DNA of 64,000 nucleotides from Bryum argenteum (Eukaryota; Streptophyta; Bryopsida; Bryales; Bryaceae). Below are positions 2,693 through 62,408 of the stretch, piece after piece (within the stretch, counting starts at the first letter, position 1; each line of letters begins with the position of its first letter). The stretch lies in the NCBI GenBank assembly GCA_037043015.1, contig CM073323.1, positions 16,501,758 through 16,565,757 on the forward strand, in the 5' to 3' direction. The notes under the pieces are model-generated. The model saw only the letters and a list, made by a program, of their open reading frames with translations. It made no database searches and was not told the DNA's origin. Both the position numbers and the translations under genes were made by a program.

Positions 2693-2961
2693 TTAACCCC
2701 TAAAGATCCACAATGTTTTGGGAGCTTGAAATCCCAACACTGACCACTATGTACTAATGCGGGTACGTCCAATATTTTTTGAAATTTCTGATAACTTCAA
2801 CGGTAGGATCTTGAAGTAGACTACCATAGGTAGTAGTGTGAAAATTTTCGACCGTTGGATCATCAGTGGATGTGAAATCATAACATTTGAAGTTGACTGT
2901 AATTTTTTTTTGCCCTTGACCGTAAAAGCCGAATCGGTGGCCGTGGTTGTTTAGGGGTTAA
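2693..2961. mobile_element. Small TTAA-flanked MITE, first of a chained pair
   Basis: This is a 269-bp unit starting TTAACCCCTAAAG and ending TTTAGGGGTTAA. It has no coding capacity. Its right-hand TTAA (2958-2961) is also the left-hand TTAA of the next unit, so the two are directly joined. The interior shares phrases about a counted 'ggatctt...accgttggatc' type sequence with decayed copies elsewhere (for example near 27.8 and 34.8 kb). Assignment to the TTAA-targeting group rests on the shared ends. Confidence 0.65.
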
Positions 2962-3222
2962 CCCCTAACTTTCCTTAAAACCCGAAACGGGTTTTGGAGG
3001 TTCCCGCACCAGAAAACTTAGCCAACTTTGACCATTATAATCTCACAAATGAGGAAGAATGAATTGTTCAAATTTTGGATGTGAGAAGAATGTCAAGTGA
3101 ACTTTGAGTCTTACAGTTGAATCTTTCAAATAATGCTTAGATTAAGATTTTTTGAGCTTAATCTAAAGGAAGGTCAAATTTTCGACTTAGACTGTTATGC
3201 AACAAGGAAATTTAGGGGTTAA
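2958..3222. mobile_element. Small TTAA-flanked MITE, second of a chained pair
   Basis: This 265-bp unit begins TTAACCCCTAACTTTCC and ends TTTAGGGGTTAA. Its left 40 bp match the ends of the large fold-back element at 11118-12011, while the interior differs from both its neighbour and that element. It shares one TTAA with the preceding unit. That fits insertion of one element at the flanking TTAA of another. Confidence 0.65.
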
Positions 3223-5572: not shown

Positions 5573-6307
5573 TTAACCCTTAACCCTTAAATGGCCTTCC
5601 ACTCCCCAATGGGCAGCCCGAAATTGGATCTCAGCATCTTTTGGACTTGGGCATCATGAATAGTGCACTTTTTGAACTTGGGCATCATGAATGAACCAAT
5701 CAATGATGAGCTTGCAACCGCCTACAAGGTTTTGTGCAACCCCAACCTACCTACCACAATCCTTTCAAATCACATATCTCTCATACAAATTGTGATTTGG
5801 ATTGTGAAATTTTACTATGTGGATGCATCATAAGAAGGTGACCATAATGATATAAAAATATAAGCAAAAAGTGAAGAATCAAATGAGCTACGAGAGAAGA
5901 TTCTCGGGAAAAAACGCAGAAGAAATTTGACAGGCGTTTAAGGGTTAAACGCCCATTGGGTCTAAAACGGGCAGCCCAAAATTGGATCACATCATCTTTT
6001 GGACTTGGGCATCATGAATAGTGCACTTTTTGAACTTGGACACCATGAATGAACCAATCAATGATGAGCTTGCAACCTCCTACAAGGTTATGTACAACCC
6101 CAACCTACCTACCACAATCCTTTCAAACCATAAAATCATACATACAAATTGTGATTTGAATTGTAAAATTTCACTTTTTGAATGCATCATAAGACGGTGA
6201 CCAGTTTGACATGAAAATATAAGTGAAAAGTCGATTACAGTGAGAGCTACAGGGAAGATTCTGTTGGAATCATGCCCCTCGGGCTTGCTTGGGCGTTTAA
6301 GGGTTAA
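5573..6307. mobile_element. TTAA-flanked MITE (outer copy) carrying a nested copy in its left end
   Basis: The outer element is bounded by TTAA at 5573-5576 and 6304-6307. Its intact right end reads GGGCGTTTAAGGGTTAA. Its left end is interrupted: TTAACCC-TTAA lies at 5573-5583 and the continuation, TTAAACGCCC, resumes at 5945. A second related element fills the gap. Without the insert the left end would be the exact mirror of the right end. The interior from 5960 to 6290 is similar, sentence by sentence, to the nested copy. It is non-coding. Confidence 0.75.
5584..5944. mobile_element. Nested TTAA-type MITE inserted in a sister element's terminal repeat
   Basis: This copy, about 361 bp, starts CCCTTAAATGG and ends GGCGTTTAAGGG. 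It is flanked by TTAA on both sides (5580-5583 and 5945-5948). The insertion lies at the internal TTAA of the outer element's end, so the duplicated TTAA can be read directly against the expected uninterrupted sequence. The interior closely resembles the outer copy, with the paired 'cttgggcatcatgaat' phrases in both. This is the best evidence in the window for the target-site preference of the group. Confidence 0.75.
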
Positions 6308-10154: not shown

Positions 10155-11121
10155 TTAACCCTTAACCGAGCCGAATGTCAAAAATCAACATTTTGGATGA
10201 CTGCAGCAACTTTGAAGAGTCATGATTTCTTCACCCATAGTTCGTTTTGGATGATATCACTTGGATTGGGTCCTAGACCAAGTCTACTATGAGTGGTAAA
10301 AACTAGAGACCCATACAATGAAGTATGAATAAATGGCATGCATTTTTGTGAAGGCTAGTTCTTGTTTTTGAGTTTTCAAACAAAGGAGCATGTTCTGCCA
10401 TTGGGAGGCAATTATGGAAAACCAAAAAGATATTTTTATGAATTTTTAACTTAGTCATGATCTTAAGATGAAGGGTGACGACTTTTTAGTAGGAATTATT
10501 TTTAGTCCAAATACTTTTGGTACTAATTTTGCAACAATGTTTCTATCTTGAAAGAAAGTGAGTAAATGGATGATTTCTGAGGAGCTATATCCACTTCATC
10601 CACCGTTTGATTTTGACTTTATTTTGGAGGTGATGGATTCCAATAAGAGTCTAGTTTTCGTGGTAAAAGGCTTGACAAAGATACATTGAAGACAAGGCAT
10701 AGATTTGAGTGCAAAGGGTTGAATTTTGGACTATTTTTCCTTTGTAAATTTTTTGGCAATGTTCACTATTGCAAGGTCATTATCAATGCAAATAAATTTT
10801 TCTCATGAGATTATTTTGTTCAAGGGTGTTATTGAGATGAAAGTAAACATCTTTGAAGTCGGTGATTTTTTTTTATTGCAATAAGGATATTGGTAGCATT
10901 TTCACTTCAGAGTGAAACTGTTAAGATTTTGTACTGATACGATATGATTTCACAATCTTTGAGGCCTCATGACTCAAAATTTGACCCACACAATGCGCAA
11001 TATGTCTACTAAAGTATGTACGCTTGAGATCTGAATAGCTCACATTTGTTTCCATTTACAACACTCTTTTTTGCAAATTTGTTCTTTTCTCTACCAATGA
11101 GTCAAACCATTTAGGGATTAA
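10155..11121. mobile_element. TTAA-flanked DNA transposon copy, about 1 kb (family B, reverse orientation)
   Basis: This copy is bounded by TTAA at 10155-10158 (followed by CCCTTAACC) and at 11118-11121 (preceded by TTTAGGGA). Its interior is the reverse complement of the element at 654-1632, recognisable throughout but diverged, so it is old relative to its neighbour. It directly abuts the fold-back element that begins at the same right-hand TTAA. It is non-coding. Confidence 0.65.
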
Positions 11122-12011
11122 CCCCTAACTTTCCTTGAAGCCCGAAATGGGTTTTTGCAATTCCGGGCAGCCCAGATGAAGGGGTTAGAAGTAATATTTT
11201 TGACTAAGAATTTTATTGGGTCCTCCTTATACTGCAAAGTGTATGTGGTAAAATTTGCAAAGTCAAATTCCAATTTTTGAGTCTTCTAGGACGATCCTTG
11301 GGTTGCGAGCCGAGATGGGGCAGCTCAAAAATGTAACTTTTTTGAGTTTTTTTTTTTGAAACATGATCATTACTAAATCACTACTCAAATTTCAAAGTGA
11401 CTCAAGTCAAAAAGTTTACCAATTTTAAAAGGGCAGCCTGCAAAAGAATTTAAAACCAATCTTCGCAATACCCAAAAAAACTTGGGAGACAAACTTTGGA
11501 TGTTATGATCTCTCAAAAGGTAAACATCCAACGGTCAATTTTTTAAAGAGTAATCAGGCATATTCTTAGGTACAAGATCTTACGGTTGGAAGTTTTAATA
11601 AAAGAAAAGAAATTGGTTTACACCCCCACGAGTGCTTAGAGGTAGAGTTTTTTTGGGTATTGCGAAGATTGGTTTCAAATTCTTTTGGAGGCTGCCCTTG
11701 TAAAATTGGCAAACTTTTTGACTTGAGTCACTTTGAAATTTGAGTAGTGATTTAGTAATGATCATGTTTCAAAAAAAAAAAAATCAAAAAAGTTACATTT
11801 TTGAGCTGCCCCATCTCGGCTCGCAACCCAAGGATCGTCCTAGAAGACTCAAAAATTGGAATTTGATTTTGCAAAATTTACCACATACACTTTGCAGTAT
11901 AAGGAGGACCTAATAAAATTCTTAGGCAAAAATATTACTTCTAACCCCTTCATCTAGGCTGCCCGGAATTGCAAAAGCCCATTTCGGGCTTCAAGGAAAG
12001 TTAGGGGTTAA
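11118..12011. mobile_element. 894-bp fold-back element, near-perfect inverted repeat bounded by TTAA
   Basis: Two arms of about 365 bp (11118-11482 and 11645-12011) are inverted copies with only scattered single differences, which I judge by eye as well above 95 percent identity. A loop of about 160 bp separates them. The ends read TTAACCCCTAACTTTCC and its complement. There is no coding capacity. If transcribed it would make a very long hairpin RNA. Diverged relatives of one arm occur at 3990-4400, 8280-8680, 28320-28669, 45720-46130 and 47570-47890. The high arm identity argues for a recent origin or for arm homogenisation. Confidence 0.85.
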
Positions 12012-18426: not shown

Positions 18427-19884
18427 ATGACGAGGCCTCCGACCTCCTCATGCAGTTCTGATGAGCGAGATGGGTTGAAGAAGGGGCCTTGGACGCCGGA
18501 TGAGGATCAGAAGCTGGTTGCTTACATTCAAGAGCACGGTCACGGGAGCTGGCGCTCTCTACCTCTCAATGCTGGCAAGTCTTGGACCTTATCGATCTCG
18601 GACGTGCGTATGTATGTATGTTTCGTGGGTTCACGGGTCTGACTGAGTGAGCATTGTTCAATGGCAGGTCTTCAGCGGTGTGGGAAGAGCTGTCGATTGA
18701 GGTGGACGAACTACCTGCGGCCGGACATCAAGCGGGGTCGATTCTCGCAGGAGGAGGATCAGATGATTGTGCACCTCCATGCAATTCTTGGCAACAGGTA
18801 ACAACCCGCTGCTGATACGGTTCGTATTCTGGTGTCTGAGTGGAATGGGCGGAGTCTGAACGTAGGACTTTTGGGTTTCTGCAGATGGTCAGCCATAGCC
18901 AGTCACATTCCGCGCCGGACTGACAACGAGATCAAAAACTACTGGAACACGCACTTAAAGAAGCGTCTGGTGCAAATGGGAATCGACCCGGTAACACACA
19001 AAGCCACGAACGCAGACGAGCTCGACGTTCTGGACGGTCTTCTCCCGGGACTGCGGCCCGTGGTATCATCCAATCTCACACACATGTCGCAATGGGAGAA
19101 CGCGCGCGCCGAAGCTGAGGCTCGTCTGTCTCGACAGTCGTCACTTACGTCCGAGTACCCAAAGGTAGCGCAGTCTACTGCTTTCATGAGCTCCTGGAAG
19201 ACTGAGGTAGCGGAGGCGCTTCGTCCCAACTTCGGCGTCGTGGAAGTCGAGAAATCCCCTGTGAATTTGCAGACGTTTCTGCAGGAGTGGGACTCATCCC
19301 TGCAACCCCACTTGCAAGGATTCTCGGGGTACGATTCGCCCATCGACGTTCCGGATTTAAGCTCCGGGACTAGCTCGGAGGTCATGTCACCTTGCGACAC
19401 TCCGCAGCCCTGCTACAACTACACATTGCCGTCGTCAGCTCAGATCACTGAGCGTCTTTTGGCTTCTCGAACTTGCAACAGCGACATGTTTTGCTTGCAG
19501 CAATCCGACAGCCCGGCATCCAACTACAATTTTCCTGGAGATTCCACTCATCATCATCATCATCAATTCTCCCCGACGAGTACTCTCCATGGTCCAGACT
19601 CTGCTTACAGCAACCCCAACGGCGTGAGTAGCGACACCGACGACCTGTTCGCATTGAACGAGCGAGCAAGCTTCAAGATGTTCCCACCTTCAGTTCCACC
19701 TTTTTGGTCTCGGCAGCAAGTAGCGATGAACAACGCTCTCCAACCCGAGCTTTCTTACTTTTTCCCCGAACAGCAGCAACAACAGCTTCCGAAACCAGCT
19801 TCGAGCTTCAATGTTGCCCCGCCACCCATGCTCAACGGAGTGCCGAACAACATCCCAATCCCTCAGTTTGAGTTTTTGTGCTGA
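18427..19884 (+). CDS. R2R3-MYB transcription factor, MIXTA-like subgroup 9 (MYB1)
   Basis: This is a nuclear DNA-binding regulator. Three exons, 18427-18574, 18668-18797 and 18885-19884, give a 425-residue protein. The intron positions (phase 1 in R2, phase 2 after GNR in R3) are those of most plant R2R3-MYBs. R2 has the three tryptophans (GPW, GSW, LRW). R3 begins with F in place of the first W, then W and W, with [19 protein letters not shown] and [11 protein letters not shown]. After it comes [16 protein letters not shown], the AQW-type motif of subgroup 9 (MIXTA/MYB106/MYB16), whose members control epidermal cell outgrowth and cuticle. The bHLH-binding signature in R3 is absent. The tail is rich in Ser, Gln and His (HHHHHH at about residue 270). 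The ATG at 18427 is the first in frame. The first intron starts with GC, not GT. It looks intact. Confidence 0.9.
18575..18667 (+). other. GC-AG first intron of MYB1
   Basis: Alignment of the reading frame with the paralogue (NAG|LQRCG here, NAG|LLRCG in MYB2) places the exon end after GCTG. The intron therefore begins GCAAGT and ends GGCAG. Apart from the GC, the donor fits the strong consensus that GC introns usually carry. The next GT downstream (near 18604) would add residues that break the conserved R2 repeat. MYB2 has a normal GT donor (GTACAT) at the same position. Confidence 0.75.
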
Positions 19885-27723: not shown

Positions 27724-28669
27724 TTAACCCCTAAAAATCCAAGCGTTTCCTCGACCTCAAGAACCAAAAACTGTCATTTTTCACCTTCGTTGGGAAATGG
27801 GGAAATGGAGAAACTTTTTTTTTCTGGTTTTAGACTTTGAACCGTAAGATCTTGTACCTAACTTGTATACAAAGGATTGGTCAAAATTTCAACCATTGGA
27901 TGTTTGTCATTTGTGAGATCGTAACAATCAAAGTTTGTCCAACACTTTTTTTTGCCGTTGCGTGAGAGGCATTGTTTAAATGGTGCCAAGGGCAACTTGA
28001 TGATTGTTACTCCAATCATTTTTCCCTCATTTTTTTTCATGTAGATAATCAAGTTAGGTACGCTCATGCAAAATTTTAGAGACCAATTTCACTTTTTGAC
28101 CTTAATGTAAATTATTTTCTGAAAGAAGGCCTAAAAACAACAATATAGTAAAACAAGCACCACATATGATATATTTAGTTTGAGAAAATTTGGACGGTGA
28201 GTAGGTGCATTTATGAGAATGTGAATTTCGAAAAAAAAAAAAAAAAAAAAAAAATCTTGGAAAAAATCCAAAATCTTAAATTTTGGCAATTTTTGAAAGA
28301 AAAAATTGTAAAATTACTAGAAATTGTGAAGATTGTTTTTGAAAGTTTTGGAGGCTGTCCGTGTAAAATTGGTAAACTTTTTGACTTCGGACACTTTGGA
28401 ATTTGAATGGTAATTTGGTAATGAACATATTTCCAAAAAAAAAGAAAATAAATAAATAAATTTAAACTGCCCGTTTTGGACTTGAAACCTAAAATTTCTA
28501 GATGAAGGTTATAAAGTTAAAATTTGGATTTGCAAATTTTACCATACACATTACACTATGGGGAGCACCCAGTAAAAAGATTAAGCAATAATATCAATTT
28601 ATCTTCTTAAAATGACCTGCCCGAAATCTCGGAAAGCCAAATCGGTTTTGCTAGATTTTTAGGGGTTAA
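27724..28669. mobile_element. TTAA-flanked DNA transposon copy, 946 bp
   Basis: A perfect 16-bp terminal inverted repeat (TTAACCCCTAAAAATC and its complement) bounds the element. The right 350 bp are a diverged relative of the fold-back arm at 11645-12011 (phrases 'ttggaggctg', 'aaactttttgacttc' and 'ctagatgaagg' in order). The left part matches the small element at 2693. It is therefore a composite of pieces seen in other members. It is non-coding, with an A-rich run near 28230. Confidence 0.7.
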
Positions 28670-38276: not shown

Positions 38277-39389
38277 CTAGATTTCGGACAAATTCTCCGG
38301 AAGCACGTATCGTAATGAGGAATCACGAACCGTGGAGGTAGCGCCATAGCCAGAGCTCAAGTCCTCCTCGTCGCCCAGCTGGAAGCCATCAGCAGCGTCG
38401 ACGTTCAGCATGCTGGGTTGCTGCCAGAACGGTTCCTGGTCCCACAGAATGTCGGCCGAGTTCGGGAGCGGGGACAGGATCGAGGTCGGTGACAGAGGGT
38501 CCATCTCCACTTGGAGCTTCGAGCAGCTCGGATGATTGTCGGTAGAACTCGCGCTCGAGTTACCGAACGATGACGATGATTCCAATCCCTCGAACACGCT
38601 GTTGAAGTCCGACGATGATGAAGAAGCTGGTTTGAGGCGAGCTTCCGTCTCGGCGCGCACTCGGTCCCATTGCGAAGTGTGGCTCGCCGAGGAGGATACC
38701 AGTGGCTTGATCAGACCACTGCTCTCTAGCATGTCCAAGTCCGAAGATGACGATGATGCTTTGTGTGTCACTGGATCGATCCCCAATTGCAGCAACCGCT
38801 TCTTCAAATGCGTGTTCCAGTAGTTTTTAATCTCGTTGTCTGTTCTCCCCGGCAAATGCGCTGCTATGGTCGACCACCTAAACACCAAAACACAAAATCC
38901 TCCGTTGGAATGCACCCACATATACACACACAGACACACTCAAAAGCAGAATGCTAGTACAAAACAGCAATTGGGTGCAGGGCCTGACCTGTTGCCGAGC
39001 ATGGAGTGAAGGTGAACGATCATCTGATCTTCGGCATCAGAGAATCGGCCTCGTTTGATGTCGGGTCTCAAGTAGTTAGTCCACCGCAACCTACAGCTCT
39101 TGCCACATCTCAGCAGACCTGTAAACAAAAAATAACGGATGTTAGCTCGAGGAACAGCTCTAGCCACGTCTTAGCAAGAATCGAATGCTAGTTTGAGAAT
39201 CGAAAAAATGAAAGAAAAGAAGCGAGATGTACCTGCGTTTTTGGGAAGAGCACGCCAGCTTCCATGTCCATGTTCTTGAATGTACGCGACCAATTTGCGG
39301 TCTTCATCAGGAGTCCAGGGGCCTTTTCTGAGCTCGATGAGCTTGACGAGTTTGGATTCAGGCTCACCACCGGGTGGTGCTCTGCCCAT
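38277..39389 (-). CDS. R2R3-MYB transcription factor, MIXTA-like subgroup 9 (MYB2)
   Basis: This is a paralogue of MYB1 on the opposite strand. Exons 39389-39233, 39118-38989 and 38877-38277 give 295 residues. Exon 2 is 130 bp in both genes, and both introns have GT-AG ends here. R2 carries GPW, GSW and LRW. R3 has F, W, W with [28 protein letters not shown] follows, and then [16 protein letters not shown], a slightly altered subgroup 9 motif. The tail is shorter than in MYB1 and rich in Ser and acidic residues, compatible with an activation domain. The ATG at 39389 precedes a short acidic leader before KGPW. The gene is GC-rich against its AT-rich surroundings. It appears intact. Confidence 0.9.
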
Positions 39390-57882: not shown

Positions 57883-58933
57883 TCTCGCCTTTCCGATCAA
57901 ATCGGCGGCCCTCTGACAGCCTACGACCTGCAAAAGTAACCTTCACAATGATGACGCTCCGTTGTTGCATGAAGCTCGTTAATATCATTGGACGAGAGTG
58001 GTGAATCGCCGCCTTCTTCTCCTCGAAACGGATCCAAGTGCTTGCTTTATCGCCCTTCCTTGGACTCTTCTAATTGCTACTGCTGTAGGGCGGCGCTAGA
58101 AGGCTATCTTCAAAGCTCAGACTTCAATTGAACGTCCATTTCGTTCTAAAAATGGGAGAATTTTCTGTGAACGTTTGTCAGATGAATGGAATCCCAATGA
58201 ATTTGGGAGGTTTAGGGTTTGGTGTTGTGCGGTATCGCCCTTTTCTCGTCGGTTTCTTACTTTGTTGTGTTTTTGAGTTGTTTCACCAAAACTCGTAAAG
58301 TCTGGCTTAGCCCGTGTGGGAAGTCGAGAATATGTTGTGCGCTTTAGAATCTGGAGGACGAAGAGAGAATCCGTGAATGCTAATAGCGGTTGGAGGAGTT
58401 GTCTAGCGCACTCAGAAGTGAAGGGCGTCGACACCAAACCCCAATCTCACCGTGGAATTTCGATCTAGGTATCACTTATCCATAATCTGCTGCTCTTTTG
58501 TTTCAATATTCATCTGATGCTAGTCTCGCCATTGACATACTCCCGCCTAGAAGTTGAATCGTGTTTTGTTAGAATAGTATCCAGTTAGGGAGGGATCTGA
58601 AGCCTTTAGTAGAATTTAACTGTCTGCATGCTTTCCCGCTTTCTAGAGAAATGCCCTTGATTTGTATTTGCGAGTCTTTTATCTCGTTGCGTGAGGAATG
58701 GGGTCTGGCCTGAGAGAGATCCGATGCCTGGAAGAGGATTTCACTCCAATGCCTTACGAGCAATTCCTGGTTTCGGAGAAAAACGATGCTAGATCTAAAA
58801 CCTCGCATTCCTTCTGTCTGTGTTTCCGTGACTGCATTCTTCCCCGCTTCGTACAGACAACCTCCCGCTGCTAGTTATTTTAACATTGTCGGAAAAGTTC
58901 AACCCATGCTGCACTATTGGTTTCTCTGCTCAT

Positions 58934-61900
58934 ATGCCTTTTTTTGGAGGGAACTTTGTAGGAAACGAAATGGGAAATGCGCGGACTCAACAACAGCGTG
59001 CTGGAGTGAGACGTCCCGGACCTGCTCAGAGAGCACAAGCACTTCAAGAAGAGCTTCTTCGACCTGATGTAATTCTGGCTAGAGAGCGAGCAGCTGAGCG
59101 TCAACGGCAATGTCGGATGAGGAAACGCGCAGTACAGGAAGCTTCGAGATTGCTCCCCACAGCTGACGATGGAACACCATCGCGCGATTTTGGGCGAAGA
59201 GATGCCTCTAGAGTCTCGAACAAAATCGTTCAATTCATAATCGAGGAGTTCCAAGGTGTGCGTCGGGGTCCTGAGTTCCGGAAGGCTGTGATGGAATCAA
59301 TGCTTCGGAATACTGCACTAATGCCTCATCTCCCGGAGTACTACTCGTGCCCGTCTGAAGCCAGAGCTCAGCATTCGTTCATCCAAAGCTACAGGACCGA
59401 ATTGGAGTCATTGAAGATACCAACTTCGAAGGAGAAGTTGGTGAGAAAGACAACTCTTCTTGAAGCTGCGATTTCCAGAAATGTTGGCGGAGTCAGAGCA
59501 TTATCGAGGGTCCTGGGCACAAAGAAAAGTAACATTTCCAACGCAATTCAGCGGCGTCAAACTCTGGAATCGATTGGATCCTCAGTCTTCACCTTAGCTG
59601 AACGGAGAAAGCGAGAAGGCATTTCCAACAATACGAAAGCCTTAGTCAACCTATGGTGGACTTCCGAAACCCGAGTAAGTCCGAACAAGAAGGACGTGAC
59701 GCGGAAAAGGTTGGGGCTGAAAACATACGAACAGCACCCTACGCATTTCCTTCTAGAAAGCCTGGTATGTTCTGAACTCCACACCGTCCTAAATTTCTTA
59801 CATTCTGCAAGTTTCGATATATGATAGTACCTCGATCGGTAGAATGTATCCCTGCTGAATACATGAAATGCATGATTGAAGTATCTGTTGTCTGTACGTC
59901 TATCTTAAAACTACACCACATGAATATGTGTGAAGTCAAGGCACAAAGTTGACTACATGCATGTCTATTGGTTTATAAAGTACTGTGGTTTATGTACTCC
60001 TCATACCATGCCTTGACTTTGTAGACTTTTGATAGTGTGTTGTTTAACTTAATGTACACATTTGATGTAGGATTACAAAACATAGTATCTTCTACAGGAT
60101 ACAATGTACTTTGAGGTGCACCGGATCGTGTATAAAGTAGATCCCACAGTCTTTGTAGACTTTAATATACATTGGCTAGTATATGTTCGACTCTGGATTC
60201 TAATGTATGTATATCACATATACATTTCAATGTATATGTAGTGTCTGTACTGAGGATATAGACTACCATATACGTACTTCTGTATTGTAAATACAAACCT
60301 ATTCTATACTTCTCACAGTACATGATTTTATTGATCAAGTATGTCGATATAGTATTCAAGTATGCTTACTGTCCCATATAGCTTGTCAGGTATATTTACA
60401 TACTTACGATGCTATCTGTGCATATACATTTGAAGTATATACTATTTTTGTTGGGTAGATTTACTTACCTTCAGTGGGCATGCACTTGATTTTGATTCTT
60501 GCAGTCTTCTTTCCATTCTCGATTCCGTATGGCGCACGAAGATCAGACAATAGGATTCAGCGCATTTGAGAGATTGAAGCCGTTTTTTGTGAAGAGGTGC
60601 AAAGATCGTAATGTTTGCTGCTGCAAATACCACGTAGAGATTGACTTGCTCGGGAAGGGATGAACAACATGCGTAATTCCAATAAGGGAGTACATGCTTC
60701 CTTATCTTGCAGTTGTGATTGTCCACTTTGCATAAGTACTTCCGAATTGGGTTGTTCGGCAACAGAACAGAGTTTTAAAGGGGTGACTTCACTGTGGGAG
60801 CAAATCGTCTGTCCGGGCGAGAGACTCATGAATTCCACAAACTTGAATGTCTGATGGGGTTGTGTGGTAATTGTGGTGCAGACAAGCTCCCAATTTGTCC
60901 TCTGGAAAGGTCAAATGAGACCTGGACCTTGAGATGGAGGTGTTTTGAGAACGAATTGGTTGGGTACACCGACAATGGGGAGCCCAGAAGAAAATTAAGG
61001 AAGTGTTCAAAGAAACTTCTTGTATGTCTTCATACGATGTTTGTTGCCAAGATTGCAGAAATTTGTGACTCATAATTTTGTTGCTAGGTGGCAAGATTTG
61101 GAATGCAGGAAAAGTATGGAAACTTTGCCTCATGATGTCGTGTTGTCTCATATAGACTTTGCTGAAAATTATACTTTTGAGATGCAAAACGAAATTCAAT
61201 CAATGCATTGGCAATCTTCACAGGTAACCATCTTAGTTCACATCACATACCGCATGGATGTGACTACAGGTAAAGTAAGGAAAGACACTCATTTCTATAT
61301 TTCGGATGACCGCACTCATGATACTTTATTTGTCCAGCATTGTTTGCTTCTCCATTGGGATGGATGAAATCTAAAGGTGTCAACCCCTCTCGCCATTGGG
61401 TGTGGAGTGATGGGTGTGCAGGGCAGTTTAAAGGGGCTAGATCTATGTACTTTGTTAGTCGTTATCCTGGACTAACGGGGGGTTCTGAGATTACTTGGAA
61501 TTTCTTTGGGACAGGTCATGGAAAGGGGGAATGGGATGGAGCCGGAGCTGTGGTGAAGCGGGCTCATCGAACAGAGCAACTTCACAACCCGTCAAGGAGG
61601 TTGCAAGACGCCAAAGATGTGGTGGAATTCCTTACGGAGTCCATGTCAGGCCTGGTGTCGAGTTCTTTTCAATCCAAGAGAACTGTGTCGTATAGACACT
61701 TTTACAACATCAAGCCTCGATGATGTGGAGAGGACACATTTACATGGATGTGACACAATCCCGTGTTCAAGGAATTTTCATTCTATACATGCGCCTCACA
61801 CCAGTGACCACCCGACATTGCTAATGGTCGAGAGCTTGCTTGCTATTGTGCGCCATGTATAGATAGTGACTGCAATCTTGTGAGAATTCATCACATGTTA

Positions 61901-62408
61901 AGTCTTGGAGGGTTGTGAAACTAGCCCCTACTAATGTGACTTTTTGTGAGGGACCAAATGGTACATGGTCCAGGAGAAGGAAGCAATTCTGTGAAGAAGA
62001 GCCGTGGGATTACGTGTCGATGATGAATCACTTGGAGGTTTGGTGAAAATTGGTGACAATTTTGTTGCCCAAATGATCCAAGGCAATCGGGAAGGTGTTG
62101 AGTTCTATGTTCTCCAATGCCAAAAAGAAAAACAACTTGTGCGAGAGAGCTTCACTTGCGTGTGGGGTGGAGAGTTCGAGCGTGGACAACACGTTATTGC
62201 AGGTACCTACTATCAAAAGTGGGGGAATAGTGAGCAATCATATGTGTATTTGACTAATTCCCAACTTGCTTACATTGATGCGGATTTAGTTCTTGCCTGC
62301 AAGTTCACAATGGTGCCTGCTCTTCATAGAGTGAAAGGAGATGATCATGTTTATCAGCTGAGTAGTGAAACTATCGAAGTCATTAGGACGAGCCTTGAGG
62401 GGTTCTGA
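58934..62408 (+). pseudogene. Intron-containing DDE-type transposase-like gene, decayed
   Basis: Exon 1 (58934-59764) encodes a basic N-terminal part, then a helix-turn-helix-like segment (GGVRALSRVLGTKKSNISNA) and TRVSPNKKDVTRKR. A 740-bp GT-AG intron follows in phase 0. Exon 2 starts at 60505 with FERLKPFFVKRCKD and CCCKYH. Further along are Cys pairs (CSCDCPLC, CGNC), IDFAENYTFEMQNEIQSMHW, VWSDGCAGQFKGA and FFGTGHGKGEWDGAGAVVKR. The acidic residues in IDFAENY, SDGCAG and GEWDG would suit a DDE/D catalytic core. The last part (62010-62408) looks like a small beta-rich reader-type domain. The frame changes several times after 60.6 kb, so it is non-functional as it stands. I recall similar proteins, uncharacterised, from invertebrates. 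The superfamily is not assigned. Confidence 0.6.
59770..60480. repeat. Cluster of TATAC/ATGTAC words in the first intron
   Basis: Short words such as GTATAC, AGTATA, TGTACA and their complements occur dozens of times on both strands with no fixed spacing. Similar clusters lie at 62460-62660, 63000-63230 and, more weakly, 57800-57845. This may be the subterminal-type repeat of a DNA transposon, or simply biased AT-rich sequence. Confidence 0.4.

Follow-up and report, generated by a model that had tools for sequence, protein, structure and literature searches.

A probable piggyBac-type MITE of the moss Bryum argenteum with a sister element inserted in its terminal repeat, and transposase elements with the same ends

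The sequence at 5573 to 6307 of a 64,000-nucleotide stretch of the B. argenteum genome (the window) is best explained as a non-autonomous miniature element (MITE) of piggyBac type, interrupted within its left terminal repeat by the insertion of a sister MITE from the same family. We put the probability of this reading at roughly 93%. Membership of the piggyBac superfamily is supported by TTAA borders, a common terminal repeat, partner elements encoding a transposase with the aspartate triad, and a cysteine-rich C-terminus in that protein. More tentatively, the genome may hold a complete, recently mobile native piggyBac system, in which two-exon autonomous elements of about 5 kb under purifying selection, their transposases belonging to a set with at least seven clusters, drive thousands of self-targeting MITE ends and so give rise to nested arrays; for this wider picture we see a little less than an even chance. 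Elements of a type investigated chiefly in animals would then appear home-grown and recently mobile in a moss.

Structure of the composite element

The initial annotation described a nested insertion at an internal TTAA, with a sister element inside the outer end, and direct reading of the sequence confirms it (Table 1). The outer end, TTAACCCTTAA followed by ACGCCC, is broken at its internal TTAA by the 361-bp sister, with TTAA at each side. The composite opens with TTAACCC at 5573, resumes with ACGCCC at 5949 and closes with the letters GGGCGTTTAAGGGTTAA at 6307; the inner element starts CCCTTAAATGG and ends GGCGTTTAAGGG. With the insert and one TTAA removed, the outer element regains TTAACCCTTAAACGCCC and measures 370 bp (TTAAs included), the same length as a solitary copy elsewhere (L013). 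The composite had also been taken as proof of TTAA target duplication. An insertion into TTAA can indeed be read here, but a single nested copy is no proof of a rule, which is carried by the genome-wide counts given below. With one mismatch allowed, TTAACCCTTAAAC is present nine times in the window, far above the 0.18 expected by chance, the nine including ends of other elements. A search of the window against Rfam returned no match, and querying it with the protein of locus L040 (see below) revealed no piggyBac frame.

Table 1 Features of the composite element (window coordinates)
Feature	Position	Strand	Basis or remark
Outer element, left border TTAA	5573..5576	.	read from sequence
Outer MITE left terminal repeat, first 7 bp (CCCTTAA)	5577..5583	+	agrees with common end TTAACCCTTAAACGCCC
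Subterminal TTAA used as target, left copy	5580-5583		inside outer left terminal repeat
Inner MITE, 361 bp, diverged sister within outer terminal repeat	5584..5944	+	sequence read and unit comparison
Duplicated target TTAA, right copy	5945..5948	.	read from sequence
Outer MITE remainder, ACGCCC to GGGCGTTTAAGGG	5949..6303	+	scored best copies elsewhere 97-98% identical
Outer element, right border TTAA	6304..6307	.	read from sequence

Two units side by side might also have arisen as a tandem dimer, through slippage or through unequal exchange, or have moved whole as one unit, rather than result from local nested insertion. Most of the 735-bp composite is covered by 41 of the 53 matches listed, the window's own included (best 40 of 3069 candidates scored), and neighbours joined through one TTAA do exist: four of the eight dimers fetched (L003, L004, L006 and L008) carry just one left end, and their units share one TTAA at the junction (GGGTTAACCC). 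In three others (L001, which is the window's own, L005 and L007) the left end is doubled, TTAACCC or TTATCCC standing ahead of a further TTAACCC, and the junction is of the interrupted form GGGTTAAACG; the two features co-occur in 3/3 of these and in none of the other five. The remaining dimer, L002, has a single left end and no exact GGGTTAA at its junction. The units in the window are diverged sisters (88% identity over 193 nt and 85% over 91 nt), and the outer end is exactly restored on removal of the insert and one TTAA; slippage was rejected on these two grounds. The best other full-length match to the composite among the places scored is 91% identical and lacks the doubled left end (L002), and no second locus combining both units at 98% or above was found among these places (best 40 of 3069). 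Movement of the composite as a unit was rejected, no copy there being closer than 91%. Two unrelated families, moreover, occupy the same subterminal TTAA elsewhere, with TTAA on both sides: a 973-bp element in L017 and a 925-bp element of a second other family in L016, where the outer first TTAA has one base changed. Tandem joining or movement of the whole is thus improbable for the composite, and local nested insertion is preferred.

Nesting of this kind recurs. The junction AAGGGTTAAACGCCC, expected where a GGG-ended element occupies the subterminal TTAA, is found 114 times in the genome, its reversed control not once. Twelve such junctions were read, namely the first on the plus strand by list order, the window's own excluded. 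A reciprocal left end lies within 420 bp in five, exact in L088, L091 and L096 and degenerate in L090 and L098; it is absent in the other seven, where the insert is perhaps longer or nested further.

Abundance and target site

Across the 259-Mb genome there are 3298 occurrences of the 17-bp end TTAACCCTTAAACGCCC (reversed control 0) and 3694 of CCCTTAAACGCCC (reversed control 2). The initial annotation proposed TTAA as both target and duplication, a claim now supported by flank counts, paralogous empty sites and the recurrent nesting. TTAA precedes 3298 of the 3694 single ends. Copies with both ends, defined by 318-348 bp between 13-bp ends, number 854, and 767 of them have TTAA on both sides. 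The 87 that lack a perfect pair correspond roughly to the expected decay of eight bases at about 1.3% divergence, a value taken from the copies closest to that in the window. Divergence from the consensus is 0-2.5% in 29 copies of usable orientation, three being identical to it; these come from the 30 best-scoring copies, the window's own included, and as the closest to the window's copy they lean young. The MITE/piggyBac system may have been active recently.

One MITE (L073, 2129-2497) lies in a host repeat. With its flanks joined by one TTAA as query, 38 other places matched across the join (best 40 of 801 candidates scored). Nine paralogous empty sites were read, eight of the 38 places and one copy in the window; five have TTAA exactly at the site and four a one-base variant. 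The base preceding TTAA is A in all nine empty sites and T in the filled site. We considered whether the true duplication might be TA or TWA, as in mariner or PIF/Harbinger, in which case the outer T and A would belong to the element or reflect a preference. From one filled site, TTAA would be indistinguishable from TA with an A...T element end. Chance alone, however, would make a free outer base T (or A) in about one third of cases, judged from base composition, and the full TTAA stands on both sides in about 90% of two-ended copies; these counts led us to reject a TA or TWA duplication. The transposase elements that carry the same ends are also piggyBac. We regard the shorter duplication as very unlikely and retain TTAA.

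Transposase elements with the MITE ends

Affinity to piggyBac, suggested at the outset, is borne out by PF13843 (DDE_Tnp_1_7) matches, common ends, subterminal motifs and alignment of the catalytic aspartates. The genome holds at least 116 PF13843 matches with E values from 7.4e-82 to 1.4e-69 (116 scored of 776 candidates), 93 of the 116 listed being free of internal stops; there was no match in 14 control genomes. Of thirty loci retrieved together with 1500 bases of flank at either end, six (L039, L040, L048, L054, L062 and L063) show the exact sequence TTAACCCTTAAA on a side within that distance of the match. An autonomous partner with these ends had been proposed as a check, and three PF13843 elements were traced to both ends, chosen from the 30 loci for a MITE-like end already visible on one side. 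They measure 4950 bp (L039 with L071), 5199 bp (L040 with L072) and 5412 bp (L048 with L073). TTAA is outermost in all three, and the MITE end matches at 17/17 positions at both borders of the first two and at 17/17 and 15/17 in the third.

Likeness extends beyond the terminal inverted repeat. The MITE 3′ end and the element 5′ ends match at 55, 55 and 53 of 108 ungapped positions, compared with a random mean of 27.7; one of 20,000 draws was as good, from a pool that itself contains MITEs. The blocks CTGTAGCTC (56-64) and GTCAAACTGGTCA (98-110) lie at equal distances from the end in MITE and elements. The MITE 5′ end resembles the element 3′ ends weakly (38, 36 and 28 of 108; 389, 952 and 9943 of 20,000 random draws as good), with a common block GGGCAGCCC at 32-40. 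The likeness is limited to the ends and short motifs, and the MITE interior was not found in the three elements compared. The MITE is thus no plain internal deletion of these, and its exact parent was not found among them.

Kolobok and Sola3 are said to use TTAA too. One of these superfamilies could have made the MITE, its resemblance to piggyBac ends being convergence, and the absence of the MITE interior from the piggyBac elements compared would fit such an origin. Against it, the 17-bp MITE end stands on both sides of three PF13843 elements, and CTGTAGCTC and GTCAAACTGGTCA keep the same distance from the end in both. We regard convergence as very unlikely and a piggyBac origin as by far the better account.

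L040 has a single open frame, 897 codons long, in which PF13843 spans 426-799 (E 1.4e-82), and the corresponding frame is split in L039 and L048, two of the three traced elements. Against PDB, the L048 protein matches piggyBat (9c0f, 3.3e-21) and Trichoplusia ni piggyBac (6x67, 1.2e-20). The aspartates of its VDE, TCDN and GVD motifs align with those of piggyBac, which we take to be the catalytic D268, D346 and D447. Aspartate occupies the three columns in 30/30, 29/30 and 30/30 loci, and the proteins of these loci fall into seven clusters at 60% identity. dN/dS between L040 and L048 is 0.15 over 490 codons and 0.25 over 316 codons. Upstream lies a second open frame, at 357-758 of the L040 element and 260-754 of the L048 element, with 66% amino acid identity over 133 codons and a dN/dS of 0.15 (133 codons; rough, as dS is 1.66). 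It ends in GTGAGT or GTGAGC, which resembles a splice donor, and we infer a two-exon transposase gene with the upstream frame as its putative first exon. Counting L040 itself, four near-identical copies of L040 (at least 98% at the DNA level) were present among the best 40 of 140 candidates. A scan of IMG/VR for the transposase with exact peptide patterns, which detect close relatives only, gave no match.

Proposed mechanism

The common ends suggest that the PF13843 transposase moves the MITE. The enzyme, encoded by the elements of about 5 kb, would bind the 17-bp terminal repeat and the subterminal motifs, excise the element and join it to a TTAA; staggered joining would leave TTAA on both sides. 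As TTAACCCTTAAACGCCC contains a second TTAA, every copy would offer targets in its own ends, and it is because of this second TTAA that nested and tandem arrays would arise repeatedly. Self-targeting and array growth through the terminal repeat are thus a testable idea.

Relation to known systems

Known piggyBac elements have CCC...GGG ends, as do the moss elements. T. ni piggyBac and piggyBat likewise have TTAA on both sides, a PF13843 transposase and the aligned aspartate triad; the cysteine-rich C-terminal part of the moss protein aligns with that of piggyBat, whereas the 6x67 alignment stops earlier. The moss elements differ in their host, their length of 4.95-5.4 kb, the long N-terminal part of their protein, the conserved upstream frame that appears to be a first exon, and a terminal repeat with a second TTAA. 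Human MER75 and MER85 are piggyBac MITEs of animals and are also short, ending like an autonomous piggyBac and bordered by TTAA; set against these, the moss MITE has a plant host, thousands of ends and recurrent nesting into its own terminal repeat. The PIF/Harbinger Tourist and Tc1/mariner Stowaway MITEs of plants are alike in size, copy number and terminal repeats, but their duplications are given as TAA/TTA or TA in PMC10004981, in contrast to TTAA and a piggyBac partner in the moss.

The initial annotation held that neither piggyBac nor Kolobok is commonly described in land plants. For piggyBac this needs softening, since the superfamily is already listed for plants. Table 2 of PMC4438587 has it in all groups studied, land plants included; passages in PMC10004981 and PMC10794571 name it among the MITE superfamilies of angiosperms and the plant DNA superfamilies, respectively, the latter passage adding that its use in plants is still limited compared with animals; and a tabulation in PMC6890710 gives 1230 PiggyBac copies for a fern. 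A description of a complete plant system was not found in the literature searched. No description of a native moss piggyBac with its MITEs was found in that search, whose scope lay outside most subscription journals and Repbase. The moss system is a member of a superfamily itself already known from plants.

If the wider picture holds, the moss would provide the first plant piggyBac to be characterised at both levels, autonomous partner and MITE, and an abundant class of moss repeats would gain a named driver. piggyBac is a main gene-transfer tool for animal cells. A transposase native to plants that combines open frames with near-identical copies and TTAA targeting would offer a candidate for a plant-adapted tool.

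Other elements and genes

At least six TTAACCC-ended elements lie in the window, the composite's two included. A 979-bp element at 654-1632 has inverted ends TTAACCCCTAAACGTCC identical over 17/17 bp and belongs to the family of the insert in the L017 MITE (80.5% over its full length). Another, of 946 bp (27724-28669; ends TTAACCCCTAAAAATCC), resembles the L016 insert and also sequence next to a piggyBac transposase from a different cluster (L058). Two further elements, 894 bp at 11118-12011 and 265 bp at 2958-3222, carry TTAACCCCTAA-type inverted ends with 0 and 1 mismatch in 17. A series of open frames at 58832-62405 (330 aa plus shorter pieces, with GQFKG and GHGKGEWDGAG stretches) has the look of a decayed transposon; four pieces from it gave nothing at cut-off against Pfam.

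One of five LEAFY SAM matches, L074, was read into its LEAFY DNA-binding domain, which has KMRDYVHCYALH and AWCQACYYPL. Its Asp and Cys presumably stand at type-separating sites, the numbering and the type-II letters being our assumption. Passages of PMC6588583 place the type sites of LEAFY at 312, 345 and 387, and describe type II as mainly a moss type that is also known from one liverwort case, and Bryopsida genes as type II. By this LEAFY gene the genome is most likely that of a moss. The window also holds, on opposite strands about 18 kb apart, two gene pieces at 18832-19884 and 38277-38939 that we take, from a motif, to be R2R3-MYB-like.
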